This document shows positions 23,109 to 64,000 of a stretch of 64,000 nucleotides of DNA, piece by piece. The position numbers were made by a program, and so were the translations under genes. The stretch is from Turnera subulata (taxonomy: Eukaryota > Streptophyta > Magnoliopsida > Malpighiales > Passifloraceae). Position 1 is the first letter of the stretch; every line of letters starts with the position of its first letter. Location: the NCBI GenBank assembly GCA_028386065.3, contig JAKUCV010001068.1:494648-558647 (forward strand). The letters are read 5' to 3'. The notes beneath the pieces are model-generated. The model did no database searches and was not told where the DNA came from. It was given only the letters and a program-made list of their open reading frames with translations.

Positions 23109-26100
23109 TGTGAGAACCCAGAACTTTCTCACCCTCGTGACAATCGATGGAGTCGCCACCCAAGTTTTATTACCGTGGAAAAACTCAGGAAAAAACCAAA
23201 GAATAACTCCTTATACCCACAAAGCAACCAGATTAGCGAACCAAAGACGCCAGACTCGGGGGTTCGTCATGAATAGGAAGGTATGAGGCACCCCATCCAT
23301 GCTTGGGCGAAATAACATGCAATTTAAGCAAATACTTGTGTTTTGGTGCTTGTGTGCGTGTGTCTAAACCAGATTTCCAACAGCATATAATCATCAAAAC
23401 AGCATGCAAAGTAGAGAACTAAAAGAACAAAAGAGAAGAGAAAAGGTTAAAACATAATTTGGCTTGCGTCTCCACCACTAGAGACATCCTACGTACCCCG
23501 ACCGGGTTCAAAGCTCACGTAGTCCTTAGATCGAAAGAAAACACTCAAGAAAATATGTCAGTATCGTCATAGCATCGAATCAGCAGCGAACAAGGCGATT
23601 TAGAATCGAAAAGAGTTTAGAACACTTACCTAGAGTTTCTGGACAGAAACTATAGTCGAATTGCAGTTGGTTTTAAGCGAGCCAAATGATCGACTCAGCC
23701 TCGGAGCTCAACATAAAAGTTGTATATCCTCCTCTTAGCTTTCCATAGAGTCCATGATCTCAGCAATCCAAGGTCTAGAACTCTATATATGAATTAATTG
23801 CCGAGACTGCGCGCTGCAGGAGCCTCTACGCGAGTTCTTCACGTTCTTGACCTCTGGATTGCGAGTGATTGCTCCTAAGCCCTTGAATTTGGCTCCTTCT
23901 CTGTAAAGACTAATAAGAAAACACAACTAGGGCAAAACCACATGATATCTGAGAGAGAAAAGCAATAGGAATTGAAGAATAAAATCAAATCTAAAGAGTT
24001 TCTCCAAGTTAATGCGCTTTAGGGTGTGTGTCGAGAGAAAATTCGATAAATTGAGTGCTTCACTGTTAGTAATATGCCCAAAAGCCAATGAATGGATGAT
24101 TGTAGTCATGTATATACATTAAGGTTATTCCAATAAATATGAATATGAGATAATCGCTTTCACATATTTATAACCCTAGAATATTTTGTATTCTTAAAAT
24201 GTCCCTAGTCGATTATTATTATGAATGGGTTATAATAATAAATTAAGGCTAGCGTGTGTTGAGAATTATATGAGAAATTAATTCTACATACGGGTACAAG
24301 TTAGAGAACTTGTGGACTGGACCGACCCACATAAGAACCCTACATGGAACGTTATATGATTGTCATTAGTGGTTCTTATATGTATTATCCTTAGACCTGA
24401 GATCATCAAGTTTCCCAACATGTGAGTCATATACTTTGATATTATTCCTAGTCATCCGTAACTGGGTGGACTTAAGGGTAATCATTGGGTATATGATAAA
24501 TGTGTAGTGGTTTTTGATTGATCAGGATGGGATTCGTCCAATCCATATAACGGGTATATTATTGGATGGTTTCTTGATAGAGTTGAACCGGAAATGCATG
24601 GCCATGCTCGGATTATGATATGGTGATATCATAGGTATCCGTTTTAGGCGGTTAACTCGAGGATCAAGAAACCGAGATTGAACATATGCGAGAATGACAA
24701 ATTCCATGTCTCGTGTTTAATCTTGATAATGGGACGAAGGGACGATGACATGTTTTCGAGGCATATTGAATCAATACTGATCTTGTCGTTCGGGTAGCAA
24801 TGAGGTGTTGCTAGACGCCGCTCTTTGCTTATAATTGTAAAATGAGATATTACGATTATTGCCGAACGTTACAAGTGCCTACAGGGTCACACACATAGAA
24901 TCGTTGATTCGAGCAGGTGGTTGAACCGTGGTTGGACCATGGTTCGACCGTGTGTGGTTGGACCATGGTTGGACTGTGGTTGGACCAGGGTCGTTTTGGG
25001 CTGGTTTGGTTCAGTTATTGAAAAAATTATTGGACCAAATTAGTGCTGTGATGAGTGTTTGTACATTAGTGGAGACATGGTTATGTGGAGACATAATCAT
25101 AAAAGATAATGGGCCAATATGTTGGCCATTATCCCATTGTCTCTTAGCACTAATCGGGGGTAGAGTAATCAGATTACTCTTGACCCTTCTCACTCTCTCT
25201 TGTATTCTGAATTCTGAGTTTTTTAGAGCAAGAAACACACACACATCTTCCTCTCTTCTTTGTGATAGAAAGAGATACCATAAACACCACATATAGCTCC
25301 CGGAAATCTGTAGCTAGCACCACGGTTCGGGAGTGCTCGGGGGTTGGAGATCGTGAGACGATTCCGGCCGGTGATTGACGGTTCGTGTGGATACCGTAGA
25401 GGAGCAGGATATCCTTCCGGCTCTAGCTGATTCGGTTCTTCAGTTAGGTGAAAGATCCTAACCGTTTCAGGTATGATTGTTGTTCGGTTTGGTTGCTTCA
25501 CTTGGATCCTCCAAGGTTTTCGGGTCTTTCCGCTTCACTTGATTGTCAAGTTTGTATGCCCGGATACTTACATTCACCACTACTCAACGTTGCCACCCCC
25601 TTCTCTGTAAACCCTAGGGACCTATATATAGTGTACAATTCGTCCATAGGCCGGTTTAAGACTCCTAGATCAGATTGGAAACAAAATCCTTGACTTGCTC
25701 ACCAGTCGGTGCTTTACCTGTTTTGTAACCCATAAATTGCACGCCCATTTCCACCTTGTAGACGACGAAAGAAAACTCTGGGCCCTTCTGTAAAGTTCTA
25801 GATAATTCTTCTAGCTTTCTAACCACATAAAGAAATCCTAAATCGGAATTCTTTAACTCGAGATATTGCAAAAATAGTGGGAATAGGTCGGTGCTAGATT
25901 TCTGCACGCCTGGGACAAATTTAAACAATTACTTCTTTTAATCTACTGGGCCAAAAATTATGCAATTTATATCCATGAAATTCATATGAGTCTAGTTTCA
26001 TGTCCAACTGGTTTCATGTCGATTGAACCCCTGAAGCTCCCGAAATCGCTAATTAAGTGGGCTGTGCTCGCTGCAGAGAAAGTTGCCAAAATAGGACCAC

Positions 26101-27879: not shown

Positions 27880-28991
27880 GGGGCATGATGCCCTGCTATG
27901 TATGTAGTTTCCGGGGGTATACTACCCCACGCAATTTGCTCAGGGTATGCTACCCTGTATGATTGGAATTGTAGTCAGGACTCTTGATTTCCAGGGCATG
28001 CAACCCCATGTATTGATTTTCCGGGGCATGCTACCCCACATGTCAGTGAGACTTACTTGGGGCATGCTACCCCATTCTGAATCAATGCATGGGGCATGCT
28101 CTCCTATTCTAAATCGATTCCCGGGGCATGCTACCCCGTTATGTGATGTATGTGATTTCCTGGGGCTTGCTACCCCGTTTTGTGATGAATGTTATTTCTC
28201 GGGGCATGCTGCCCCGTTATCTGATGAATGTTGTTTTCCAGGGCATGCTACCCCATTTTGTATGTGGTTTCCCGGGGAATGCTACCCCTTGTGATTTATT
28301 TGGGGTATACTACCCCATAAGTCTGGAGTCATAATCAGGTTCCCGGGGCATGCTACCTTGTGTATTGATTTCCCAGGGCATGCTATCCCGTTCTGAATCA
28401 ATTCGTAAGGCATGCTACCCCTAGTGATTCATTTGGGGCATGCTACCCCATAGGTCTGGAATCGTAGTCAGGTTTATAGGGCACGCTACCCCATGTATTG
28501 GCTTCTCGGGGCATGCTACCCCATGTATTGATTTTTCGGGGCATGCTACCCCATGTGTTTGTGAGACTTACATGGGGCATGCTACCCTGTTTTGAATCAA
28601 TCCACGGTGCAAGCTACGCCATTGTTGGAGATGACTTTCTTTGGGGCATGCTACCCCGAGGGGTATGTAATGCCCCGAGAGTTGACTAACGGTTGATGGA
28701 AAAGGTATGTGGTGCCATGGGGAGGGATGAGAAGATTCCCGTAGTTGAACCCAGAAGATGAGAGAAAACCTGAGTCCCAATGGGAACACGACAAATCCCG
28801 AGCCAAACTCGAGTCCCCATGGGAGGATGACAAATCCCAAATCAAACCCGAATACCCCATGGGAGGATGATAGTATCACCAGTTAGTGAGGATTGTGAGA
28901 CTTATATGGGGCATGCTACCCCGTTTTGAATCAATCCACGGTGCAAGCTACGCCATTGTTGGAGATGACTTTCTTTGGGGCATACTACCCC
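27880..28991 (+). repeat. Array of about 26 GGGGCATGCTACCCC palindrome-like motifs
   Basis: Starts include 27880, 27914, 27942, 27993, 28023, 28059, 28091, 28123, 28162, 28201, 28240, 28274, 28302, 28345, 28375, 28407, 28435, 28478, 28508, 28538, 28574, 28606, 28643, 28908, 28940 and 28977. Spacing is 28-51 bp apart from one gap. Each is a 15-mer with a GGGG/CCCC stem around CATGCTA. Variants such as GGGGTATACTACCCC (27914), AGGGTATGCTACCCT (27942) and GGGGCATGCTGCCCC (28201) extend the stem to 6 bp. The intervening sequence is only loosely repeated. It lies in the 3' interior of element A. Confidence 0.85.
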
Positions 28992-30135: not shown

Positions 30136-31605
30136 TGTAAGAATCCGGGCATACAAACTTGACAATCAAGAGCAGCGGAAAGACCCGGAAACCTTGGAGG
30201 ATCCAAGTGAAGCAACAAAACCGAACTACAAAAACAAACATACCTGAAACGGTTAGGATCTTTCACCTAGCTGAAGAACTAAATCAGTTAGAGCCGGAAG
30301 GATATCTTGCTCCTCTACGGCATCCACACAAACCGTCAATCACCGGCCGGAATTGTCTCACGATCTCCAACCCCCGAGCACTCCCGAACCGTGGTGCTAA
30401 TGGTATCTCTTTCTTTCATAAAGAAGAGAGGAAGATGTGTGTGTGTTTCTTGCTCTGAAAAACTCAGAATTCAGAGTGCAAGAGAGAGTGAGAAGGGTCA
30501 AGAGTAATCTGATTACTCTACCCCCAATTAGTGCTAAGAGACAATGGGATAATGGCCAACATATTGGCCCATTATCTTTTATGATTATGTCTCCACATAA
30601 CCATGTTTCCACTAATGTACAAACACTCATCACAGCACTAATTTGGTCCAATAATTCTGTCAATAACTGAACCAAACCAGCCCAAAACGACCCTGGTCCA
30701 ACCACGGTCCAACCATACCCGGTCGAACCCTGGTCCAACCAAGGTTCAACCACCTGCTCGAATCAACGATTCTATGTGTGTGACCCTGTAGGCACTTGTA
30801 ACGTTCGGAAATAATTGTAAAATATCATTTTACAATTATAAGCAAAGAGCGGCGTCTGGCAACACATCATTGCTACCCGAACGACAAGATCAGTACTGAT
30901 TCATATGCCTCACAAACATGTCGTCGTACTTTCGTCCCATTATCAAGATTACACCGAGACATGGAAAACATCAGTCTCGCATATGTTCAATCTTGGTTTC
31001 TTGATCCTCGAGTTAACCGCGTAAAAGGGATACCTATGATATCACCATATCATAATCCGAGCATGGCCATGCATTTCCGGTTTAACTCTATCAAGAAACC
31101 ATCCGATAATATACCCGTTATATGGGTTGGATGAATCCCCTCTGGATCATACAAAACCCACTACACATTTATCATATACCCAATGATTACCCTTAAGTCC
31201 ACCCAGTTACGAATGACTAGGAATAATATCAAAGTATATGATTCATATGTTGGGAACCTTGATGATCTCAGGTCTAAGGACAATACATATAAGAACCGCT
31301 ATCGACAAACATATAACGCTCCATGTAGCGTTCTTATGTGGATCGGTCCAGTCCACAAGTTCTCTAACTTGTACCCATATGTAGAATTCATATCACATAT
31401 AAATTCTTAACATACGGTAGTCTTAATTTATTATTACAACCTATCCATAATAATAATCGACTAGGAACATTTTAAGAATACAAAATATTCTAGGGTTATA
31501 AATATGTGCAAGCGATTATCTCATAATCATATTTATTGGAATAACCTTAATGTATATACATGACTACAATCATCCATTGATTGGCTTTTGGGCATATTAC
31601 TAACA
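30136..31605 (-). mobile_element. 3' LTR of copia copy 1
   Basis: The 1470-bp LTR runs TGTAAGAATCCGGGC to TTACTAACA on the plus strand. It contains an 11-13-bp inverted repeat around AATTGTAAAAT near 30812-30840 and tandem GGTCCAACCA-like repeats at 30683-30752. Confidence 0.9.
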
Positions 31606-31619: not shown

Positions 31620-32346
31620 CTAAAGCCAATCAACCATGTATCTAATACCAATGGATGCGCAATGACCATCATGCTTCTGCTGCGTGAGTGGCTTCGTCAA
31701 GGGATCAGCTACATTCTTCTCAGAAGGAACTCTGCACAGCCTGACATTGCCTCTATCTATGATCTCTCTAATAAGTTGATAGCATCGGAGTATATGTTTG
31801 GATCTCTGGTGGTATCTAGGCTCTTGAGCCTGTGCGATTGTCCCATTATTGTCACAATAGAGCTCAATCAGACTCTCAATACTAGGAACCACCCCAAGTT
31901 CAGTTACGAACTTCTTAATCCAAAAAGCCTCTTTCGCCGCATCTGAGGCAGCAATGTACTCAGCCTCGATTGTAGAATCTGCAACTGTCTCTTGCTTAGA
32001 ACTCTTCCAGCATACAGCACCACCTCCAAGACAAAACACATAACTTGATTGCGATCTGAAGTCATCCCTATCTGTTTGGAAGCTAGCATCTGTGTAACCC
32101 TTTACAACAAGCTTATCAACGCTTCCATACACAAGGAATGCATCCTTAGTCTTTCTCAAGTACTTAAGGATGTTCTTAACCGCTGTCCAGTGACTCTCAC
32201 CGGGATCAGATTGATATCTGCTTGTGACACTCAAAGCATAAGCAACATCCGGTCGAGTACATAGCATGGCATACATGATAGATCCTATTGCCGAAGCATA
32301 AGGGATCTTACTCATCCGCTCTCTCTGCTTCGACGTACTAGGACAA
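31620..32346 (-). pseudogene. Copia RNase H, fused by deletion to integrase
   Basis: RNase H degrades the RNA strand during reverse transcription. Visible are SKIPYASAIGSIMYAMLCTR, the acidic YTDASFQTDRDD, then AEYIAASDAAKEAFWIKKF, ELYCDNNGTIAQAQEP and HILRCYQLIREI. It ends at DPLTKPLTQQKHDGHC and IGIRYM near the PPT. The upstream junction at about 32346-32361 joins directly to integrase, skipping about 1.2 kb that carries RT in copy 2. The frame is open but lacks its upstream partner. Confidence 0.85.
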
Positions 32347-33546
32347 TGATTCACAACTGACGTAAGCCTCACAACCCCAAATCCTCATAAAAGACAAATT
32401 GGGACGCTTCCCAGTCCATATCTCAAATGGTGTCTTTTCGACCGATTTAGATGGAACACGGTTAAGTGTAAATGCAGCACTCAATAATGCATGTCCCCAA
32501 AATGAAGAAGGATGGTCAGCTTGACTCATCATCGAACGAACCATATCTAATAAGGTTCTATTCCTCCTTTCAGATACACCATTCCATTCAGGTGTACCTG
32601 GTGGAGTAAGTTGTGATACTATACCACATTGCTTTAGATGATCAAGAAACTCTTGGCTTAAGTATTCACCTCCTCGATCAGATCGAAGCATTTTAATACT
32701 TTTACCGAGTTGATTCTGTACTTCATTCTTGAACACTTTGAACTTTTCAAAGGATTCTGACTTGTGTCTCATAAGATACACATAGCCATATCTACTGTAA
32801 TCATCAGTAAATGTAATGAAGTATTGAAAACCACCTCTAGCTTGTGTAGACATAGGTCTGCATACATCAGAATATATAAGACCTAATAAGTCTGAAGCTC
32901 TTTCACCTTTACTAGTAAAGGGAGCCTTCGTCATTTTTCCCAACAAACATGACTCACATGTCTCATATGATTCAAAATCAAATGAGTCTAACAGTCCATC
33001 TTTATGGAGTTTAGCAATACAAGTCTCGTTTATATGGCCCAAACGACAATGCCAAAGGTAGGTTTCATTAGAATTGTTCATTCTAACCTTCTTCGTATTA
33101 ACGTTATAGATTGGCGTTTCTAGGTTTAGAACATACAAACCATTGCTCAAATATGCACCACCATAATAAACATCATTGAAATAAATAGAACAACATTTAT
33201 TCTTTATTACAAATGAAAAGCCTTTCTTGTCTAGACAAGAAACAGAAATCAAATTCCTGCTTTTGGTAGGTATATAATAACAATTGTCCAGTTCTAAGAC
33301 CAAACCACTCGGTAAGGATAGATAGTAAGTTCCTACGGCTAATGTAGCAACTCTTGCTCCATTTCCGATGCGTAGGTCTATCTCACCCTTCGCCAATCTC
33401 CTACTCTTTCTGAGTTCCTGCACATTCACACAAATGTGAGAACCACATCCGGTATCTAATACCCATGATGCAGAGATAGAGATATTAGCTTCTATAACGA
33501 AAATACCTGAATTGGAAGTCTCACCTCCCTTCTTCTTCTTTACCTC
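32347..33546 (-). pseudogene. Copia protease and integrase, 3' part deleted
   Basis: In the same frame as gag after a TAA. The protease region ends with the conserved cell of catalytic context seen in copy 2 (VLDTGCGSHICVN). The integrase zinc finger spans HCRLGHINETCIAKL to CESCLLGK; the core has Asp in FTDDYSRYGY and SDRGGEYLSQEF and Glu in SERRNRTLLDMVRSMM. The reading frame ends in unrelated residues where RT was deleted. The protein would be inactive without RT. Confidence 0.85.
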
Positions 33547-34362
33547 TTAAAGGTAAACAAGGCAGTTGCGCTTCCAATGGCCCGGTTTGTTGCAATGGAA
33601 ACAATGTCCTTCCTTTGCAATACCACCCTTGGGTTTCAGCACGTGGTCACAAGAAGATGCACATGCACCAAACTTTTTGGCACATTTCTTCTTCTTGTTG
33701 AACTTTGCTTTACCCTTTCCTTTGCCTTTTCCAATCATCAAAATGTTGGATTTGTTTGCCCTCATTTGTTGCTCAGCTGTTCCCAACATGTTAAGCAACT
33801 CAGACAACGATTTATCAAGATGATTCATATTGAAGTTCATGACAAATTGGCTGTAACTGTCCGGCAACGATTGCAGGACTAGATCAACCGCCAACTCCTT
33901 TTGCAAAGGAAAACCAAGACCCTCAAGGCTCTCAATGTAACCAATCATTTTGAGCACATGAGGTCTCACGGGTGATGACTCAGCCATCCTGCATTGGAAC
34001 AATGCCTTAGAGGTCTCATACCTCTCATGCCTTGCTTGCTCATCAAAGAGCATCTTTAGGTGTTCGATCATATCGAACGCCCCCATGTTCTCATGTTGCT
34101 TCTGAAGCCCAGATTCCATGGCTATCAGCATAAGACATGCGACATCCAATGCATCATCAAGATGCTTCTTGTAAGCATCCCTTTCTGTCCTAGGAGAATT
34201 AGGCGCCGGTTCAATCGGAACAGGCCCTTCAAGGACATACAGCTTCTTTTCTTGTTTGAGGACAATGCTCAAATTGCGATACCACTTTAGGAAATTATTC
34301 CCATTCAGCTTTTCCTTCTCAAGGACCAATCGCAATGATAGTGTACCTGTGTTTTGTGCCAT
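33547..34362 (-). pseudogene. Copia gag, nearly intact
   Basis: The 271-codon gag starts MAQNTGTLSLRLVLEKEKLN. The capsid (UBN2-type) domain includes NNFLKWYRNLSIVLKQE, YETSKALFQCRMAESS and LPDSYSQFVMNF. A basic stretch (KGKGKGKAKFNKKKK) precedes a CCHC knuckle, CFHCNKPGHWKRNC. It ends at VYL with a TAA where copy 2 reads Glu, so the stop is a late nonsense mutation that separates gag from pol. Gag coats element RNA in the particle. Confidence 0.88.
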
Positions 34363-35725
34363 GGTAGCTCTACAACAAAGATCAACTCACACAAATAAGA
34401 GTCATGTATACATAAATCATTTAACAAGGAATTCTATTAAATGATGCTCCTACTATGAAAACAAAATAATCATGAGTTGGCCAAGATCCATATTTCACTA
34501 CAATATAAGTCAGCTTTGGCTGATCGCCTACATCATAGCTATTTAGGTAGACAACTCTTGTCATTTACATCTCATGTAACTCTTGGATAGTTGAGCGAAC
34601 AACGCTTGTTCTTGTCTATCTCATAGACATTACTCAACTCCTTGCCTCTAAGTCCTTAATCCTATTAAGATGACCTAGTTAAGTCCAAACCCATAATAAG
34701 CAGTTCAGATATTACAATTATCTAGTCGCACCTTGCTAGGATAAACATTGGCACCTTGCTTTGGCAAAAACTACCAAATGTTGATCTAAGTAATGATGAG
34801 TGCATATCATGGAAGGCAACTAAGAACTTAATATTTACATCAACATATGTTCATACATAACATGCATATAATCAAAAATTCATACATTGATGTTTTGTAA
34901 ATTTGGAAACCAAAAATACATGTGAACATCGATGTCTAACTTGAACATCGATGTTTTGAGAATCTGATTCTCCCAACTACTTGGCAGCACTCAGTATTTC
35001 GGCCATATCTAGAGCTGTAGAGCTTGGTTTGGTGCAATCGTGGTGTCCCTGGAAAGCTAAGAAGTAGTTCTACAAGTTTGCTATTCAAGCCAGACACCAA
35101 TTTGGCCTCCTTCTGCCCCGAATTTGCTGTTAAGTCACTGGATTCCAGAACATCGATGTTTAACCTTAAACATCGATGTTTGAAGTTTGCGAATCCACAG
35201 AAACATCAATGTCGGAGGTTGCCGAACCCTCAGAACATCGATGTTGACAGTCAAACATCGATGTTGGAGGTTGCCGAGCCCAAAGAACATCGATGTTGAT
35301 GACCAAACATCGATGTTTAAGGTTGGTGAATGCATAGAACATCGATGTTAACACTTAAACATCGATGTTTTGACCTCTCGGCCGTCAATCGACCTAAGAG
35401 AACATCGATGTTCAAAGCTTAAACATCGATGTTGTAGGTATCATATACCTTTCAAGCACCCATGTCGAACTCGTTCGACTTTCTACCAAAACACACTTTG
35501 ATTGATATCACATACCAATCAAGTGCCTGACATCAAAACACTTTTGACAAAAATAACTTCAACATATATCACATATACAAATGAATTCAGCATAACACAT
35601 ATACAAAATGAATTCAGCATATCACATATACCAAATTGAACTTAACATATCACATACATTAAGATGAACATATCACATATGCATAACAATTCGGTTTAGA
35701 GCTTCACAAGAGGCTCCGCTATCAC
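34363..35725 (-). other. Copia leader (5' UTR) of copy 1
   Basis: The 1.36-kb untranslated leader lies between LTR/primer-binding site and gag. It aligns with 62380-63795 in copy 2. Next to the LTR (35560-35690) is a run of ATATCACATATAC-like repeats. The primer-binding site would be TGATAGCGGAGCC on the minus strand (35724-35712), only loosely like the initiator-Met site. Confidence 0.7.
34926..35432. repeat. Paired ACATCGATGT palindrome array in copia copy 1
   Basis: Starts: 34926/34945, 35150/35170, 35203 (ACATCAATGT, partner missing), 35235/35255, 35287/35307, 35339/35359, 35402/35423; a decayed one lies at 34884. Members of a pair are 19-21 bp apart; pairs repeat at about 52-63 bp. The spacer inside many pairs is itself an inverted repeat (for example TTTAACCTTAAA and TTAACACTTAA), so each pair can fold as one hairpin. 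Confidence 0.9.
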
Positions 35726-37228
35726 TGTAAGAATCCGGGCATACAAACTTGACAATCAAGAGCAGCGGAAAGACCCGAAAACCTTGGAGGATCCAAGTGA
35801 AGCAACAAAACCGAACTACAAAAACAAACATACCTGAAACGGTTAGGATCTTTCACCTAACTGAAGAACCGAATCAGTTAGAGCCGAAAGGATATCTTGC
35901 TCCTCTACGGTATCCACACGAACCGTCAATCACCGGCCAGAATCGTCTCACGATCTTCAACCCTCGAGCACTCCCGAACCGTGGTGCTAGCTACGGATTT
36001 CCGGGAGCTATATGTGGTGTTTATGGTATCTCTTTCTTTCACAAAGAAGAGAGGAAGATGTGTGTGTGTTTCTTGCTCTGAAAAACTCAGAATTCAGAGT
36101 GCAAGAGAGAGTGAGAAGGGTCAAGAGTAATTTGATTACTCTACCCCCAATTAGTGCTAAGAGACAATGGGATAATGGCCAACATATTGGCCCATTATCT
36201 TTTATGATTATGTCTCCACATAACCATGTCTCCACTAATGTACAAACACTCATCACAGCACTAATTTGGTCCAATAATTCTGTCAATAACTGAACCAAAC
36301 CAGCCCAAAACGACCCTGGTCCAACCATGGTCCAACCATACCCAGTCGAACCATGGTCCAACCACAGTTCAACCACCTGCTCGAATCAACGATTCTATGT
36401 GTGTGACCCTGTAGGCACTTGTAACATTCGGCAATAATTGTAAAATCTCATTTTACAATTATAAGCAAAGAGCGGCGTCTAGCAACACATCATTGCTACC
36501 CGAACGACAAGATCAATACTGATTCATATGCCTCGCAAACATGTCATCGTCCTTTCGTCCCATTATCAAGATTAAACCGAGACATGGAAAACGTCAATCT
36601 CACATATGTTCAATCTTGGTTTCTTGATCCTCGAGTTAACCGCGTAAAAGGGATACCTATGATATCACCATATCATAATCCGAGCATGGCTATGCATTTC
36701 CGGTTTAACTCTATCAAGAAACCATCCGATAATATACCCGTTATATGGGTTGGACGAATCCCCTCTGGATCATACAAAACCCACTACACATTTATGATAT
36801 ACCCAATGATTACCCTTAAGTCCACCCAGTTACGGATGACTAGGTATAATATCAAAGTATATGACTCATATGTTGGGAACCATGATGATCTCAGGTCTAA
36901 GGACAATACATATAAGAACCGCTATCGACAAACATATAACGTTGCATGTAGCGTTCTTATGTGGGTCGGTCCAGTCCACAAGTTCTCTAACTTGTACCCG
37001 TATGTAGAATTCATATCACATATAAATTCTTAACATATGCTAGTCTTAATTTATTATTACAACCCATCCATAATAATAATCGACTAGGGAAATTTTAAGA
37101 ATACAAAATATTCTAGGGTTATAAATATGGACAAGCGATTATCTCATAATCATATTTATTGGAATAACCTGAATGTATATACATGACTACAATCATCCAT
37201 TGATTGGCTTTTGGGCATATTACTAACA
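35726..37228 (-). mobile_element. 5' LTR of copia copy 1
   Basis: The 1503-bp LTR runs TGTAAGAATCCGGGC to TTACTAACA. A 13-bp perfect stem with loop CTC lies at 36434-36462. Tandem GGTCCAACCA-like repeats lie at 36315-36377. Frames such as 36584-37033 are LTR sequence shared with the other copies and not genes. Confidence 0.9.
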
Positions 37229-53694: not shown

Positions 53695-55216
53695 TGTAAG
53701 TATCCGGGCAGGCAAACTGACAATCAAATGCAATAACATACGCAGCGAAAAACCGGATACACACGGAGGATCCAAGAGAAGGGTAGCTAAACCGAATAAC
53801 AATTTTTACGTACCTGAATCGGTTGAGGTCTTTCACCCAACTATAAGGACGAATCAGCAAGAGCCGGACAGAAATCCTGCCCCTCTACGGTATCCACATG
53901 AACCGTCGATGACTAGCAGGAAACCATCTCACGATCTCCAACCCGAGCTCTCCCGAATAGCAGTGCTAGCTGCGGGTTTCCGAGAGTTGTGTGGTGTTTT
54001 GTGTTCTTCTTTCTTTCTCAAAGAATGAAGGGGTGAGTGTGTGTTCTTGATGCTCTGAAAAATCAGAATTCAAGGTGTAGAGTAATCTGATTACTCACTC
54101 CAATAAATGCATAGATTATTAGAGACAAGAATGGCCAACATAATGGTCCATCCAACATGATTAAGATTCCACCACTATCTAGTCTAATCATGTCTCCACT
54201 ATGCACTAATGGGATTACACATCACGTGCCATCAGGTTTGGCTCAATAATTCTGACAATTAGTGAATCAATCCAGCCCAAAATGACCCTGGTCCAACCAC
54301 GGTCCAACCACAGTCCAACCATACCTGGTCGAACCATGGTCCAACCACGGTTCAACCACCTCCTTGAATCAACGATTCTAAGTGTGTGACCCTGTAGGCA
54401 CTTGTAACGTCCGGCAATAATTGTAAACTCATTTACAATTATAAGCAAAGAGCGGCGTCTAGCAACATATCATTGCTACCCGAACGACAAGATCAGTACT
54501 GATTCAATATGCCTCGTAAACATGTCATCGTCCCTTTGTCCCATTATCAAGATTAAACACGAGACATGGAATATGTCAATCTCGCATATGTTTAATCTCA
54601 GTTTCTTGATCCTCTAGCTAACTGTGTAAAACGGATACTAATGATATCACCATATGATAATCCGAGCACGGCCGTGCACTTATAGTTCAACTCTATCAAG
54701 AAACCAACCAATAATATACCTGTTATATGGGTTGGACGAATCCCCTCTGGATCATACAAAACCCACTACACATTTATCATATACCCAATGATTACACTAA
54801 GTCTACTCATTTACGGAATAGCCAAGAGTAATATCAAAGTATACGACTCATATGTTGGGAAGCTTGATGACCACAGGTCTAAGGACAATACATATAAGAA
54901 CCGCTAATGACAATCATATAACATTCCACGTAGCGTTCTTATGTGGGTCGGTCCAGTCCACAAGTTCTCTAACTTGTACCCGTATGTAGAATTCATATCA
55001 CATATAATTCTCAACATACGCTAGTCTTAATTTATTATTACAACCCATCCATAATAATAATCGACTAGGGACATTTAAGAATATATAAATATTGTAGGAT
55101 TATAAATATGTTCAAGCGTTTATCTCATAAACGATATTTATTGGAATAACCTTAATGTGTATACATGATTACAAACAAACATCCATTGATTGGCTTTTGG
55201 GCATATTACACTAACA
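53695..55216 (-). mobile_element. 3' LTR of copia copy 3
   Basis: The 1522-bp LTR runs TGTAAGTATCCGGGC to ACACTAACA. Its hairpin near 54417-54443 is shorter than in copy 1, but both arms lost the same bases, so pairing is kept (ATAATTGTAAA / TTTACAATTAT). Confidence 0.87.
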
Positions 55217-56459: not shown

Positions 56460-57159
56460 CTATGTACTCTGACTTAGCCCGAGAAGCCTTTTGGATCTAC
56501 CTCTATAGATCTTTATGCCTAACACATAGGCTGCTTCTCCTAAGTCCTTCATTGAGAAATTCTTCCCTAACCAAGCCTTTACAGACTGTGGTGTCGGAAT
56601 GTCTTTCCCATTGAGTAGGATGTCGTCAACATACAACAACAAGAAAACAATAATGCTCCCACTAACCTTCTTGTAAACACATGGTTCATCTTCGTTCTTA
56701 ATGAAACCAAACTCTTTGATCACTTCATTAAAACAAAGATTCCAACTCCTAGAAGCTTGCTTCAATCCATAAATGGATCTCTGCAACTTGCATACCATAT
56801 TGGCATTCTCTGGATCGACAAAACCTTCAGGTTGTGTCATGTACACATCCTCTAAAAGATTTCCGTTAAGGAAAGCGGTTTTGACATCCATTTGCCATAT
56901 CTCATAATCATAGTGTACCACTATAGCCAATAGAATCCGGATGGATTTAACCATGGCAACTAGCGAGAAAGTTTCATCATAGTTAACACCATGAACTTGC
57001 TTGAAACCTTTCGCCACCAATCGCCCTTTATAGGTAATCACATTACCATCCATGTCGGTTTTTTTCATAAAGACCCACTTGCACCCTATGGGTTTTACCC
57101 CTTCAGGTGGATCAACCAAGGTTCATACCTTGTTTTGATACATGGATTCCATTTCCAAA
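56460..57159 (-). pseudogene. Copia reverse transcriptase (copy 3), N-terminus displaced
   Basis: The open frame covers most of the palm: VDPPEGVKPIGCKWVFMKKT, YKGRLVAKGFKQVHGVNYDE, the first catalytic Asp region [39 protein letters not shown], and LLLYVDDILLNGKDIP with the YVDD box intact. It ends at GLSQST and a stop. The upstream part of pol is separated by the copy-2 insertion at 57160. It is the best-preserved copia RT here. Confidence 0.87.
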
Positions 57160-58672
57160 TGTAAGTATCCGGGCATGCAAATTTGATCAATCAAGAGCAG
57201 CGGAAAGACCCGGAAACCTTGGAGGATCCAAGTGAAGCAACTAAATCGAACAACGAAATGAACATACCTGAAACGGTTAGGATTTTTCACCTAACTGAAG
57301 AACCGAATCAGCTAGAGCAGGAAGGATATCCTTCTCCTCTACGGTATCCACACGAACCGTCAATCACAGGCCGAAACCGTCTCACGATCTCCAACCCCCG
57401 AGCACTCCCGAACCATAGTGCTAGCTACGGATTTCCGGGAGCTATATGTGGTGTTACTTTCTTTCTCAAAGAATGGGTGAGTGTTTGTGTGTGTTCTTAC
57501 TGGTCTGAAAAACACTCTCAAGGCTCTCAAAAATCAAAATGCAATAAGCCAAAAACCCAACGCATAATCTAATTAAGCCACTCAATTAGTGCTTATGGTA
57601 ATGACCAACATAATGGCCCATCATGATTAAGATACCCATTATCTTGTCTACCACTAAGCACTAATGGGATTACACATCACAAGCAATCAGGTTTGGCTCA
57701 ATAATTCTGACAATTTTTGAATCAAACCAGCCCAAAACAACCACGGTCCAACTACGGTCCAACCACGGTCTAACCATGGTCCAACCACACCTGCTCGAAC
57801 CATGGTCCAACCACGGTTCAACCACCTGCTCGAATCAACAATTCTAAGTGTGTGACCCTGTAGGCACTTGTAACGTCCGGCAATAATTGTAAACTCAATT
57901 ACAATTATAAGCAAAGAGCAGCGTCTAGCAACACATCATTGCTACCCGAACGACAAGATCAGTACTGATTCAATATGCCTCGGAAACATGTCATCTTCCT
58001 TTCGTCCCATTATCAAGATTAAACCGAGACATGGAAAACGTCAATCTCTTATATTTTTAATCTCGGTTTCTTAAACCTCGAGTTAACCGCGTAAAACGGA
58101 TACCTATGATATCACCATATCATAATCCGAGCATGGCCATGCATTTCCGGTTCAACTCTATCAATAAACCATCCGATAATATACCCGTTATATGGGTTGG
58201 ACGAATCCCCTCTGGATCATACAAAACCCACTACACATTTATCATATACCCAATGATTACCCTTAAGTCCACCCAGTTACGGATGACTAGGAATAATATC
58301 AAAGTATACGACTCATATGTTGGGAACCTTGATGATCTGAGGTCTAAGGACAATACATATAAGAACCACTAATGACGATCATATAACGTTCCATGTAGGG
58401 TTCCTATGTGGGTCGGTCCAGTCCACAAGTTCTCTAACTTGTACCCGTATGTAGAATTCATATCTCATATAATTCTCAACATACGCTAGTCTTAATTTAC
58501 TATTACAACCCATCCATAATAATAATCGACTAGGGACATTTTAAGAATAAAGTATTCTAGGGTTATAAATATGTGCAAGCGAATATCTCATAATCATATT
58601 TATTGGAATAACCTCAATGTATATACATGACTACAATCATCCATTGATTGGCTTTTGGGCATATTACTAACA
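57160..58672 (-). mobile_element. 3' LTR of copia copy 2
   Basis: The 1513-bp LTR runs TGTAAGTATCCGGGC to TTACTAACA. The inverted repeat near 57891-57916 and an enlarged GGTCCAACCA-like array (57739-57826) are present. Confidence 0.88.
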
Positions 58673-58849: not shown

Positions 58850-60367
58850 CTAGCTCAGAGCACCATCTCCAAGACAAAACACATAACCTGATTGCGATCT
58901 AAAGTCATCCCTATCAGTTTGGAAGCTAGCATCTGTGTAACCCTTTACAACAAGCTCATCCACACTTCCGTAAACTAGGAATGCATCCTTAGTCCTTCTC
59001 AAGTACTTAAGGATGTTCTTAACTGCTGTCCAGTGACTCTCACCGGGATCAACTTGGTATCTGTTTGTGACACTCAAAGCATAAGCGACTTCCGTTCGAG
59101 TACATAGCATGGCATACATGATAGATCCTATTGTAGAAGTATAAGGAATCTTACTCATTCGCTCTCTCTCCTTAGTCGTACTAGGACATTGATTCTTTGA
59201 GAGAGCTACGCCATGTGACAAGGGCAAGATTCCTTTCTTGGAATCTTGGTTGCTAAACCTCTTTAGTACCTTGTCAATATATGTACTCTGACTTAGCCCG
59301 AGAAGCCTTTTGGATCAATCTCTATAGATCTTTATACCTAACACATAAGCAGCTTCTCCTAAGTCCTTCATTGTGAAATTTTTCCCTAACCAAGCCTTTT
59401 ACAGACTGTAGTGTCGGAATGTCATTCCCAATAAGTAGGATGTCGTCAACGTATAACAACAAGAAAACAACAGTGCTCCCACTAACCTTTTTGTAAACAC
59501 ATGGTTCATCTTCGTTATTAGTGAAACCAAACTCTTTGATCACTTCATTAAAACAAAGATTCCAACTCCTAGAAGCTTGCTTCAACCCATAAATGGATCT
59601 TTGCAACTTTCATACCATACTAGCATTCTCTGGATCGACAAAACCTTCAGGTTGTATCATGTACACATCCTCTAAAAGATTTCCATTAAGGAAAGCGGTT
59701 TTGACATCCTTCTGTCATATCTCATAATCATGGTATGCTGCTATAGCCAATAGAATCCGACTGGATTTAACCATGGCAACTGGTGAGAAAGTTTCATCAT
59801 AGTCAATACCATGAACTTGTTTGAAACCTTTCGCAACCAATCGCCCTTTATAGGTAATCACATTACCATCCAAGTCGGTCTTTTCTTAAAGACCCAGCTG
59901 CACTCTATAGGTTTTACCCCTTCAGGTGGATCAACCAAGGTCCATACCTTGTTTTGATATATGGATTCCATTTCCGAATTCATGGCTTCTAGCCACTTCT
60001 TGGAGTCCGAACCCGTAATGGCCTGCTGATAGGAAGTGGGCTCATCCTCATCTATGAGCATCACATCTCCAGTATAAGTCATAAGAAATCCATATCTCTC
60101 AGGCTCATACCGAATCCTATTCGACCAACGCGGTCCATGTGTTATAGGTACAGGATTTTCACCCACAACATCTTGCGATTCCTGTCCTTGTTCCATCTCA
60201 ACCTCTAGATCTCGAACTTCCTCGAGCTCTATTTTTCTCCCACTGATTCCTCTAGAAATAAATTCTCTTTCTAGAAAAATAGCAGTCCGAGCAACAAACA
60301 CTTTGTGGTCGGTGGGATTATAGAAGTAATACCCTTTAGTTTCCTTATAGTATCCTACAAGAGGCAC
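58850..60367 (-). pseudogene. Copia RT and RNase H (copy 2), frameshifted and truncated
   Basis: From 60367 down: GYYKETKGYYFYNPTDHKVF (link after integrase), TLVDPPEGVKPIECSWVF, then after a frame change LQRSIYGLKQASRSWNLCF and LLLYVDDILLIGNDIP (YVDD intact, 59322-59606), another change, and RNase H SKIPYTSTIGSIMYAMLCTR to YTDASFQTDRDDFRSQSGYV (58850-59227). The RNase H C-terminal half, present in copies 1 and 3, is deleted at about 58810-58860. RT is interrupted by at least two frameshifts. Confidence 0.85.
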
Positions 60368-61560
60368 TTTTCGGATTTAGAGCCGAGTTTATCTGATGCT
60401 TCACGTCTCACGTAAGCCTCAAAACCCCAAATCCTCATAAAAGACAAATTGGGACGCTTCCCAGTCCATATCTCATATGGTGTCTTTTCGACGGATTTAG
60501 ATGGAACACGGTTAAGTGTAAATGCAGCACTCAATAATGCATGTCCCCAAAAAGAAGAAGGAAGGTCAGCTTGACTCATCATCGAACGAACCATGTCTAA
60601 CAAGGTTCTATTCCTCTTTTCGGATACACCATTCCATTGAGGCGTACCCAATGGAGTGAGCTGTGATACTATACCACACTCCTTTAGATGATCAAGAAAT
60701 TCTCGGCCTAAGTATTCACCTCCTCGATCAGATCGAAGCATTTTAATACTTTTACCGAGTTGATTCTGTACTTCATTCTTGAATTCTTTGAACTTTTCAA
60801 AGGATTCTGACTTGTGTCTCATTAGATACACATAGCCATATCTACTGTAATCATCAGTAAATGTAATGAAGTATTGAAAATCACCTCTAGCCTGTGTAGA
60901 CATAGGTCCGTATACATCAGAATGTATTAGACCTAACAAGTCCGAAGCTCTCTCACCTTTACCGGCAAAAGGAGCCTTTGTCATTTTGCCTAATAAACAT
61001 GACTCACATGTCTCATACGATTCAAAATCAAATGAGTCTAAAAGTCCATCTTTATGGAGTTTAGCAATACAAGTCTCGTTTATATGGCCCAAACGACAAT
61101 GCCAAAGGTAGGTTTCATTAGAATCGATTATTCTAACCTTCTTCGTATTAACGTTATAGATAGGCGTTTCTAGGTTTAGAACATACAAACCATTGCTCAA
61201 ATATGCACCACCATAATAAAAATCATTGAAATAAATTGAACAACAATTGTTCTTTATCACAAATAAAAACCTTTCTTGTCCAGACAAGATACAGAACTCA
61301 AATTTCTGCTTATGGTAGGTACATAATAACAATCGTCCAGTTCTAAAACCAAACCACTCGGTAAGGATAGATAGTAAGTTCCTACGGCTAATGCAGCAAC
61401 TCTTGCTCCATTTCCAACACGTAGGTCTATCTCACCCTTTGCCAATCTCCTACTCTTTCTCAGTTCCTTCACATTTACACAAATGTGAGAACCACATCCG
61501 GTATCTAATACCCACGATGCAGAGAAAGAGATATTTGCTTCTATAACGAAAATACCTGAA
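60355..61560 (-). pseudogene. Copia protease and integrase (copy 2)
   Basis: The protease motif VLDTGCGSHICVN (catalytic DTG) lies near 61510. The integrase finger spans HCRLGHINETC to CESCLLGK. The core has Asp in FTDDYSRYGYVYLM and SDRGGEYLGREF and Glu in SEKRNRTLLDMVRSMM; the downstream VPSKSVEKTPYEIWTGKRPN and IWGFEAYVRREASDKLG follow. One frame covers 60355-61332; a frameshift near 61260 separates it from protease. Confidence 0.86.
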
Positions 61561-62379
61561 GTGGAAGTCTCACTTCCCTTCTTCTTCTTTACCTCTTCAA
61601 GGTAAATAGGGCAGTTGTGCTTCCAATGGCCCGGTTTATTGCAATGGAAACAATGTCCTTCCTTTGCAATACCACCCTTGGGTTTCAGCACATGATCACA
61701 AAAAGATGCACATGCACCAAACCTTTTGGCACATTTCTTCTTCTTGTTAAACTTTGCTTTACCCTTTCCTTTGCCTTTTCCAATCATCAAAATATTGGAT
61801 TTGTTTGCCCTCATTTGTTGATCAGTTGTTCCCAACATGTTAAGCAACTCAGACAACGATTTGTCAAGAAGATTCATATTGAAGCTTATGACAAATTGGC
61901 TGTAACTATCCGGCAACGATTGCAGGACTAGATCAACGGCCAACTCCTTCTGCAAAGGAAAACCAAGACCCTCAAGGCTCTCAATGTATCCAACCATTTT
62001 GAGCACACGAGGTCTTACGGGTGATGACTCAGCCATCCTGCATTGGAACAATGCCTTAGAGGTCTCATACCTCTCAAGTGTTCGATCACATCGAACGCCC
62101 CCAATTTCTCATTTGCTTCTGAAGCTCAGAGTCCAAGGTTATAAGCATAAGGCATGATGTATCCAATGCATCATCAAGATGCTTCTTGTAAGCATCCCTT
62201 CCTGCCCTAGAAGCACTAGGCGCCGGTTCATTTGGAACAGGCCCTTCGAGGACTTACAATTTATTTTCTTGTTTGAGGACTATCCTCAAATTATGATACC
62301 ATTTTAGGAAGTTATTCCCATTCAGTTTTTCCTTCCAAAGGACCGATTGCAGTGATATTGTGCTAGTGTTTTGTGCCAT
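61561..62379 (-). pseudogene. Copia gag (copy 2), broken N-terminus
   Basis: The ATG is complementary to 62377-62379. The first ~110 residues carry a stop near 62250 and a deletion-caused frameshift near 62075. The rest (62051 down) is open: FQCRMAESSPVRPRVLKMVG, LPDSYSQFVISF, KGKGKGKAKFNKKKK and the CCHC knuckle CFHCNKPGHWKHNC. Unlike copy 1 it reads through into protease (YLEEVKKKKG). Confidence 0.85.
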
Positions 62380-63795
62380 GGAAATTCTACAACAATGATC
62401 AACTCACACAAATAAGAGTCTTGCATACAAAATCATTTAACAAAGAATTCTATTAAATGATGCTCCTACTATGAAAACAAAATAATCATGAATAGGCCAA
62501 GATCCATATTTCACTACAATATAAGTCAGCTTTGGCTGATCGTCTACATCATAGCTAGTTAGGTAGACAACTCTTGTCAATTACATCTCATGTAACTCTT
62601 GGATAGTTGAGCGAACAACACTTGTTCTTGTCCATCTCATAAACATTACTCAACTCCTTGCCTCTAAGTCCTTAATCCTATTAAGATGACCTAGTTAAGT
62701 CCAAACCCACAATAAGCAGTTCAGATATTACAATTATCCAATCGCACCTTGCTGGGATAAACATTGGCACCTTACTTTGGCAAAACCTACCAAGTGTTGA
62801 TCTAAGCAATGATGAGTGTTTATCAAGGAAGGCAACTAAGAAATTAATATTTACATCAACATATGTTCATACATCACATGCATATAATCAACAAATCATA
62901 TATTGATGTTATGTAAATTTGGAAACCAAAGATACATGTAAACATCGATGCCCGTAAGTGAACATCGATGTCTTTGAGAATCTGATTCTCCCCAACACCT
63001 TGGTAATGCACAAGGACATCGATGTCCATTGCTGAACATCGATGTCCATTGGCCTCGGGTACTCTAGGACATTGATGTCCTGTCATGAACATCGATGTCA
63101 TTTGGACTCTAGAACACAAGGACATCGATGTCCTGTCATGAACATCGATGTCCTTGAGGCTCTGGAAGTCCAAACCTTTTGGCAGAGCTCTGGAACATCG
63201 ATGTTCAACTCTTGGACATTGATATTGGAAAGTTCCAAAGGTTCATTGGCCTCTGGAACTCAAGCACATCGATGTTCAACTCTTGGACATCGATGCTGGA
63301 AAGTTCCGAAGGTCCATTGGCCTCTGGAACTCAAGAACATCGATGTTCAACTTTTGGACATCGATGTTGGGAAGTTCCAAAGGTCCAAAAACTTGGCAGT
63401 AGTTTTAAACATCGATGTCTAACCTTTAAACATTGATGTATGAGACTCTGGAACACAAGGACATCGATGTTATAAAGTGAACATCGATGTTATTTGGTCT
63501 CTGGAATCTCAAATCAATCTCATAAGGCTCTTGGACATCGATGTTCAATCCTGAACATCGATGTTCATGTGAATTTGCCAAGGCCAGCCTTTCATAGAAC
63601 AGGCTCGGCCAAGGCAAATCCTCATGTGGACATCGATGTCCATCTTATGAACATCGATGTTCTGGTCCTGCAGCACTAGAACGACCATCGATTTTCGTTT
63701 TGTCGAACCCCTTCGACTTACTGCCAATTACTCCTTGATTGATATCACATACCAATCAAGTTCAAGCTGTCAAAACACTTTTGACACAAACCAAC
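62380..63795 (-). other. Copia leader (5' UTR) of copy 2
   Basis: Aligned with 34363-35560 of copy 1. The second half is occupied by the palindrome array. It is cut by a plus-strand LTR at 63796. Confidence 0.7.
62942..63660. repeat. Eleven ACATCGATGT palindrome pairs in copia copy 2
   Basis: Pair starts: 62942/62962, 63016/63036, 63069/63089, 63122/63142, 63195/63216, 63266/63287, 63337/63358, 63409/63430, 63461/63481, 63535/63555, 63630/63651. Within pairs the step is 20 or 21 bp without exception; between pairs it is 52-53, 71-74 or 95 bp. Flanks vary in step (GGACATCGATGTCC versus GAACATCGATGTTC), which keeps the palindrome. A few members carry one or two changes (ACATTGATGT, ACATCGATGC, ACATTGATAT). 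Confidence 0.92.
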
Positions 63796-64000
63796 TGTTA
63801 GTAATATGCCCAAAAGCCAATCATGGATGTTCATTTATAGTCATGTACATACACTTTAAGGTTATTCCAATAAGTATCGTTTATGAGATAAACGCTTGCA
63901 CATACTTATAACCCTAGAATATTTCATATTCTTAAATGTCCCTAGTCGATTATTATTATGGATGGGTTGTAATAATAGATCAAGACTAGCGTATGTTGAG
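63796..64000 (+). mobile_element. Copia-family LTR, plus strand, cut by window end
   Basis: It begins TGTTAGTAATATGCCC, as the solo LTR at 24064, and runs to the window end. It is inserted in the leader of copy 2 in opposite orientation; whether it is solo or a full element cannot be seen. Confidence 0.85.

Follow-up and report, generated by a model that had tools for sequence, protein, structure and literature searches.

Helically phased rows of a palindrome in copia retrotransposons of Turnera subulata suggest a docking platform for a protein

The locus studied here, a stretch of 64,000 nucleotides from Turnera subulata (hereafter, the window), raises the question of why a copia retrotransposon should carry a long row of paired palindromes ahead of its gag gene. 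The first-pass annotation, made from the sequence alone, had described eleven pairs of the 10-bp palindrome ACATCGATGT in a copia leader, and had proposed that spacing by whole helical turns places every site on roughly one face of the DNA or, alternatively, that the row reflects growth from a unit of about 21 bp; it also suggested that each pair can fold as an RNA hairpin. As set out below, the helically phased rows suggest a docking platform for a protein rather than chance repeats.

Palindrome arrays in the window and in the genome

The word ACATCGATGT was found in 29 exact copies in the 64-kb window, against 0.05 expected, a number reached by none of 100 shuffles. Seventeen of these copies lie within 62962-63660 and twelve within 34926-35432. 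The eleven pairs of the first-pass annotation were all recovered (array A, Table 1), as 22 sites with zero to two mismatches, with the qualification that only 17 of them are exact, four carrying one mismatch and one carrying two; the CpG was lost in three of these five inexact sites. The spacing was also as described, with members of a pair 20 bp (6/11) or 21 bp (5/11) apart and successive doublets following each other at 74, 53, 53, 73, 71, 71, 72, 52, 74 and 95 bp. The other array was absent from that annotation, and its single site at 35203 resembles a doublet whose two members were fused by a deletion between them.

Both arrays are situated, as had been claimed for the first of them, in leaders of minus-strand copia elements, and these belong to one family. 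The placement of array A between primer-binding site (PBS) and gag held in part: the array is upstream of gag (ATG at about 62378, minus strand), whereas the PBS of this copy (copy A) is outside the window. The order LTR-PBS-array-gag is readable in the second element (copy 1), with the LTR from 35726, the array at 34926-35432 and the gag ATG at about 34363. The putative PBS word of copy 1 resembles the complement of initiator-Met tRNA; with one change, it is also present at the equivalent place in two further families described below. Features of Ty1/copia elements were observed as gag and integrase in copy A and as an LTR pair with a 5-bp target duplication (the flanking repeat TTTGG) in copy 1, and an RVT_2 (reverse transcriptase, RT) domain was present in a neighbouring copy at 56460-57122. 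Among the 120 matches listed of 609 relatives, the top identity to the copy 1 gag at full query coverage was 65%.

Compared with copy A, about 1.2 kb are missing from copy 1 between integrase and RNase H, and the RT region appears to be absent from 31620-33546. Since this region appears to be missing, yet the leader with its array is retained and the LTRs are 96.6% identical, copy 1 may be a non-autonomous derivative.

Table 1. Positions of the palindrome arrays and of the features of their host elements in the window.
Feature	Positions	Strand	Remarks
Array A	62942..63660		22 sites of ACATCGATGT, 11 doublets, leader of minus-strand copia copy
Doublet 1	62942..62971		step 20
Doublet 2	63016..63045		step 20
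Doublet 3	63069..63098		step 20
Doublet 4	63122..63151		step 20
Doublet 5	63195..63225		step 21
Doublet 6	63266..63296		step 21
Doublet 7	63337..63367		step 21
Doublet 8	63409..63439		step 21
Doublet 9	63461..63490		step 20
Doublet 10	63535..63564		step 20
Doublet 11	63630..63660		step 21
Longest spacer of array A	63565..63629	-	imperfect inverted repeat; paired in predicted fold
Copy 1 array	34926..35432		13 sites (12 exact), 6 doublets and a single site at 35203
Gag-proximal leader of copy A	62378..62936	-	no site with one mismatch or fewer; 94.1% identity to copy 1 over 556 aligned bases
Gag/zinc knuckle/beta-barrel ORF of copy A	61257..62108	-	Retrotran_gag_2, zf-CCHC, Pol_BBD
Integrase-region ORF of copy A	60355..61431	-	gag_pre-integrs, rve; SH3_retrovirus just below cut-off
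LTR of window family, probably 3' LTR of copy A	57160..58672	-	85.7% identity to LTR of copy 1
Start of LTR of window family, opposite orientation	63796..64000	+	alignment from 63791; breaks copy A leader before PBS
Gag of copy 1	33547..34362	-	271 aa
Putative primer-binding site of copy 1	35712..35724	-	10/13 by eye against initiator-Met tRNA complement
5' LTR of copy 1	35726..37228	-	LTR comparison
3' LTR of copy 1	30136..31605	-	K2P 0.035 (96.6% identity) to 5' LTR

In the 518.7-Mb T. subulata genome, at least 37,721 exact doublets were counted at 20 or 21 bp (at least 11,499 and at least 26,222, respectively). The remaining step classes counted gave at least 150 exact pairs for 23-29 bp taken together, at least 1,194 for 35-40 bp, at least 8,163 for 41-45 bp and at least 29,310 for 50-55 bp, and the reversed-pattern controls for the six classes, in the same order, gave 5, 19, 1, 0, 6 and 9. 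Within the 35-40-bp class, most listed matches were at 39-40 bp, many with a third site inside. Words resembling TTGGCCTTGGCCGA, present in the longest spacer of array A, recur in spacers of the genome-wide matches with a 41-45-bp step. Nineteen stretches were fetched, 18 around the first listed matches with a step of 20 bp (contigs C8 to C44), a choice that favours arrays with a step-20 doublet and not any gap length, and one past the window end. Arrays were present in 18 of the 19, and the stretch past the window end has no site.

The same palindrome array is carried by at least three distant copia families, at three different positions. In the family of the window (family 1) it is in the leader, and a family-1 LTR, leader or gag was recognised at 8 of the 18 array loci (L057, L059, L062, L064, L067, L068, L069 and L071); the array on C12 (L084) likewise has family-1 surroundings. 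In family 2 (L056, L066 and two C8 copies, with an RT 42% identical to a family-1 RT) the LTRs hold the array, which in one C8 copy occupies positions 500-730 of 774, towards the 3' end of the LTR; a TATA-like box at 291 precedes it by about 210 bp, and among the LTRs of the array families such boxes were found in family 2 only. The members of family 3 (L065, L058, L063 and C3) have LTRs of yet another type in common; in L065 the array occupies positions 302-1061 of 1703, and the same element contains a second, internal array. The family-3 gag gave no significant alignment with that of family 1. Coiled-coil matches were obtained in the L065 gag only, and by these matches, together with arrays both in the LTR and internally, family 3 resembles a Sirevirus. 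Two other loci, L060 and L070, are mutually related; these two and L061 were assigned to none of the three families. On C8, a small LTR element (L055:6033-8653) carries arrays in each of its LTRs; between them is a frame encoding a DEK_C domain, which may be a host gene that was captured.

The exact doublet pattern was also matched in microbial collections, by one viral contig and 48 prokaryote stretches. These were not retained as relatives and were attributed, without alignment to the plant arrays, to chance pairing or to independent tandem repeats of 21-bp period; in the microbial arrays, 102 of 147 neighbour steps are of 21 bp, and none of six candidates was confirmed in a gag search of the viral contigs. 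Tandem arrays of the palindrome, mostly with a 21-bp period, were observed in several metagenome-assembled genomes of different bacterial phyla (L008:4594-4820, L003:1279-1650 and 14 further loci), some of which have arrays on at least four contigs.

Local helical phasing and turnover of the arrays

At the 18 loci outside the window, site-to-site steps are near 2, 3, 4, 5, 6 and 7 helical turns. All-pair distances in 25 nonredundant arrays (319 sites) form a comb at approximately 20.5, 32, 43, 52.5, 63.5, 73, 84.5, 94 and 104.5 bp, and the class means of the neighbour steps were 20.5 (n = 157), 31.8 (23), 43.2 (42), 52.7 (64), 64.5 (2) and 73.3 bp (3), with the six- and seven-turn classes represented by those two and three steps only. 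When spacers that differed by less than 30% in direct or inverted comparison were dropped, 327 neighbour steps (window included) were reduced to 100, of which the 58 measuring at least 24 bp gave an R of 0.717 at 10.4 bp that none of 2,000 jittered sets reached.

Because the window had itself suggested the hypothesis, the phase test was rerun on the 18 loci with the window left out, the period fixed beforehand at 10.5 bp and a jitter null. Mean cosines were 0.705 (125 steps), 0.691 (54 steps, 30% filter) and 0.726 (27 steps, 40% filter), and in each case none of 20,000 nulls attained the observed value. For the families other than that of the window, the corresponding values were 0.705, 0.693 and 0.638 (68, 30 and 19 steps), reached by 0, 0 and 1 of 20,000 nulls. 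The helical reading of the first-pass annotation was supported at loci other than the one that gave rise to it, and also by the genome-wide counts. Motif distances in other copies, which it had proposed to collect, peak at whole turns, and neither of the outcomes that it had named as contrary, an even spread elsewhere or a single recent expansion, occurred.

Its further claim that every site is on one face proved valid over short range and not for array A as a whole, which is incoherent at 10.5 bp (R 0.09, p 0.91-0.92) and at its best period of 10.6 bp reaches R 0.64 (p 0.11-0.14); confined to array A, the global Rayleigh test was not significant. The mean cosine at 10.5 bp was 0.71 for distances of 60-110 bp, 0.36 for 110-200 bp, -0.02 for 200-300 bp and -0.37 for 300-500 bp: the phase is local and fades beyond 110-200 bp. 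A gap-phase test on 12 hand-picked gaps of the window gave p values of 0.0004-0.00085, on which we do not rely since a 205-bp gap was omitted and independence was assumed. Two arrays added later agreed in part, with mean cosines of 0.82 over nine gaps (C12) and 0.50 over five gaps, one of them a 58-bp step (C3). Off-phase steps of 35, 46, 66, 207, 210, 205 and 58 bp are present.

Tandem growth does not in general produce such phasing, as a control array of the motif GGGGCATGCTACCCC in the window (26 copies) was unphased, with a mean cosine of 0.16 at 10.5 bp (n = 24). This motif is a near-palindromic 15-mer situated at 27880-28991, unpaired and irregularly spaced at 28-51 bp with one gap of 265. 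Separately, a unit of about 11 bp, close to one helical turn, is repeated in tandem in LTRs of the window family (GGTCCAACCAC and similar words; 24917-24991, 30690-30741, 54287-54359 and 57738-57825).

With regard to sequence conservation, motif identity between doublets was 0.93-1.00, compared with 0.50-0.62 for loops and flanks and 0.44 for random ten-mers. Only 6 of 340 motif letters departed from the consensus, versus 200 of 459 neighbouring letters from the column majority; spacers are thus near saturation while the palindrome is conserved. In the fetched arrays and the window, ACATCGATGT is usually extended to AACATCGATGTT (212/266 exact sites), and in 248 of 269 pairs of consecutive steps a short step is followed by a long one or the reverse. 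The arrays also turn over: the gag-proximal leaders of copies A and 1 are 94% identical, yet their arrays do not align. Direct duplication of units is visible as 71-bp and 53-bp repeats, and 91 of 599 spacer pairs were similar in direct orientation, against 2 of 599 in inverted orientation. The origin from a unit of about 21 bp, which had been offered as the alternative to phasing, was rejected as sufficient, given that spacers are near saturation, that no relics of the motif were found in them at 21- or 31-bp offsets, and that steps of three and five turns are common. A coding repeat was likewise rejected, since step lengths are not multiples of 3.

A putative protein platform and competing readings

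We consider it probable that the array acts in cis as a DNA platform, offering cooperative sites to a putative dimeric DNA-binding protein with an enhancer or anti-silencing effect. Each site in the row, in most cases the 12-bp palindrome AACATCGATGTT, would be recognised by a sequence-specific and presumably dimeric protein, with two sites two helical turns apart as the basic unit; because neighbouring units are whole turns apart, neighbouring dimers would come to sit on the same side of the DNA and could therefore cooperate. The element keeps the sites and their local phase while spacer letters drift, and arrays grow by direct tandem duplication. Binding would be expected to activate or protect transcription, as an enhancer or in the anti-silencing manner of VANC targets, and not to insulate or repress it. 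The presence of one word in several families suggests a host protein, or the protein of one element acting in trans; a literature search for the word ACATCGATGT found no plant factor. Against a platform, it must be considered that step lengths may in part go back to a small number of ancestral spacers that have since diverged in sequence, an effect that is reduced, and cannot be abolished, by removing similar spacers (40% filter).

Unlikely, in our assessment, is a reading in which the doublets act in the genomic RNA, as stem-loops for dimerisation, packaging or translation control. Family-1 arrays would be contained in the RNA, since they are downstream of the PBS, and those of family 2 are downstream of the TATA-like box. 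The series of eleven hairpins suggested by the first-pass annotation did not emerge from the predicted ensembles, in which within-pair hairpins reached a mean probability of at least 0.7 in 4 of 11 doublets of array A and 1 of 6 in copy 1, and the predicted pairing partner of a site was often a member of another doublet. Covariation, which that annotation had named as a check, was examined in 147 doublets that differ in their loops: 54 substitutions were seen in the core, and in no case was there a compensating change in the partner site or within the site itself. Complementarity of the outermost flanking letters across the doublet was slightly raised (122/147 versus 115.5 expected, p 0.009), whereas position 2 of the outer flank was below expectation (33 versus 44.7) and the dyad of the first site was raised more (p 0.0005); flank covariation was consequently set aside as a weak and inconsistent signal.

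The folding energies are more favourable to an RNA role and would not be predicted from a purely DNA role. The minimum free energy of array A was -352.8, compared with -275.6 +/- 7.1 with motifs kept, and folding z scores were below -2 in 10 of 10 family-1 arrays versus 4 of 13 others. Per doublet, the mean extra stability was -2.8 kcal/mol in family 1 and -1.6 elsewhere; per gap, it was -4.8 and -1.6, respectively, so that family-1 spacers add structure beyond the palindromes, and this excess did not come from inverted duplication, which was scarce among spacer pairs. Little excess was seen in the six arrays of family 2 and its relatives (z -2.9 to 0.1, the sense strand being known for one), while two of three family-3 LTR arrays had z below -2; moreover, seven of eight other element regions also folded more stably than their shuffled versions (z -1.8 to -6.4), the exception scoring +1.3. 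In addition, gaps of 3, 4 and 5 helical turns are not needed for RNA folding. A DNA role is favoured over an RNA role because no core substitution was compensated, pairing partners are often in other doublets, gaps are phased and the position of the array changes between families. A second, RNA-level use may nonetheless exist, since the leader arrays of the window family are more structured than the palindromes require and two of the three family-3 LTR arrays also have z below -2. The platform and hairpin readings should be separable by changing spacings by half turns versus full turns.

We regard it as quite improbable that the arrays are chiefly a target of host silencing, recognised by a host repressor or the small-RNA machinery while the element needs the same sites. 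Palindrome clusters of maize Sireviruses are reported to gather excess small RNAs (PMC10760457), and CpG transitions, as expected of methylated sites, were the commonest class of core change (18/54); a purely harmful site, however, should vanish, and the motif is the best conserved part. Least probable of all is neutral, satellite-like growth by doublet duplication with inherited spacer lengths and without function: direct duplication is indeed seen in these arrays and tandem repeats are common in plant retrotransposons, but drift would strike motif and spacer alike and only the motif is conserved, spacers hold no motif relics, the word recurs across very different coding regions and the GGGGCATGCTACCCC array is unphased.

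For the protein platform, a bolder extension can be formulated, namely that several distant copia lineages of this plant converged on, or exchanged, one code, in which AACATCGATGTT doublets spaced by whole turns seat one protein, cooperatively, along one face of the DNA and keep the elements active. We put this forward tentatively, with more doubt than confidence. If true, it would amount to a trans-acting, multi-family anti-silencing or enhancer system in which geometry is read as much as sequence.

Comparison with known systems

In its putative action, the array can be likened to the Su(Hw) cluster of gypsy and to the targets of VANC proteins, and in form it is closest to the repeated motifs (RM) of Sireviruses. 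A literature search for ACATCGATGT gave no match with a retrotransposon title, and among the literature matches listed, helical phasing of such arrays was not found in titles or the opening parts of abstracts. The Drosophila element gypsy is a Ty3/gypsy element. The 5' UTR of gypsy holds an insulator made of 12 Su(Hw) sites, to which a zinc-finger protein of the host binds (PMC2374998). This insulator resembles the present arrays in that sites are clustered in an LTR-retrotransposon leader, the protein sites being putative in our case; it differs in its non-palindromic, degenerate consensus, and doublets are not mentioned in the available part of that source.

Like the present arrays, the VANC target motifs of VANDAL elements form dense, fast-turning tandem arrays of short motifs in the non-coding part of a plant transposon, and motif density matters for localisation (PMC5735166, PMC10398659). 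VANDALs are DNA transposons with a non-palindromic motif (YAGTATTAY) that is rare outside its own family and a protein encoded by the element, whereas the present word is common to several families. In maize, the palindrome CACCGGACNNNGTCCGGTG is clustered in copia elements and also in Helitrons; it is a different word, which the available text treats as an RNA structure and small-RNA source without discussing phasing (PMC10760457).

Sirevirus RM, described by Bousios et al. 2010 (PMC2829016), who left the question of a regulatory function to experimental work, are short and mostly well conserved palindromes in 8 to 32 copies per element. In the part of that paper at hand, which contains no spacing analysis, they are called Sirevirus-specific, are located in LTRs or near env and have a CGG-CCG core, except in Tnd-1. 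As in Sireviruses, our palindromes form clusters outside the coding regions of plant Ty1/copia elements, in at least eight copies of high identity; their core is ATCGAT, in common with the Tnd-1 motif ACAATCGATTGT, and family 3 is akin to Sireviruses in its coiled-coil gag and in having arrays in the upper LTR and internally. In the window family, the array is in the PBS-gag leader, LTR locations being confined to families 2 and 3, and the gag has 271 aa and ends at the zinc knuckle, where Sireviruses have a much larger, coiled-coil gag. Because place, core and element type differ, we do not class the window-family array as a Sirevirus RM. In contrast to the RM as described there, the present word is also carried by two families that have other gags, in either leader or LTR, and its arrays are organised in doublets with local helical phase. 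Phasing of this kind, which extends over tens of thousands of doublets and is common to families whose coding regions differ widely, argues for the assembly of a protein on the DNA, rather than RNA hairpins, as the main role of the array.
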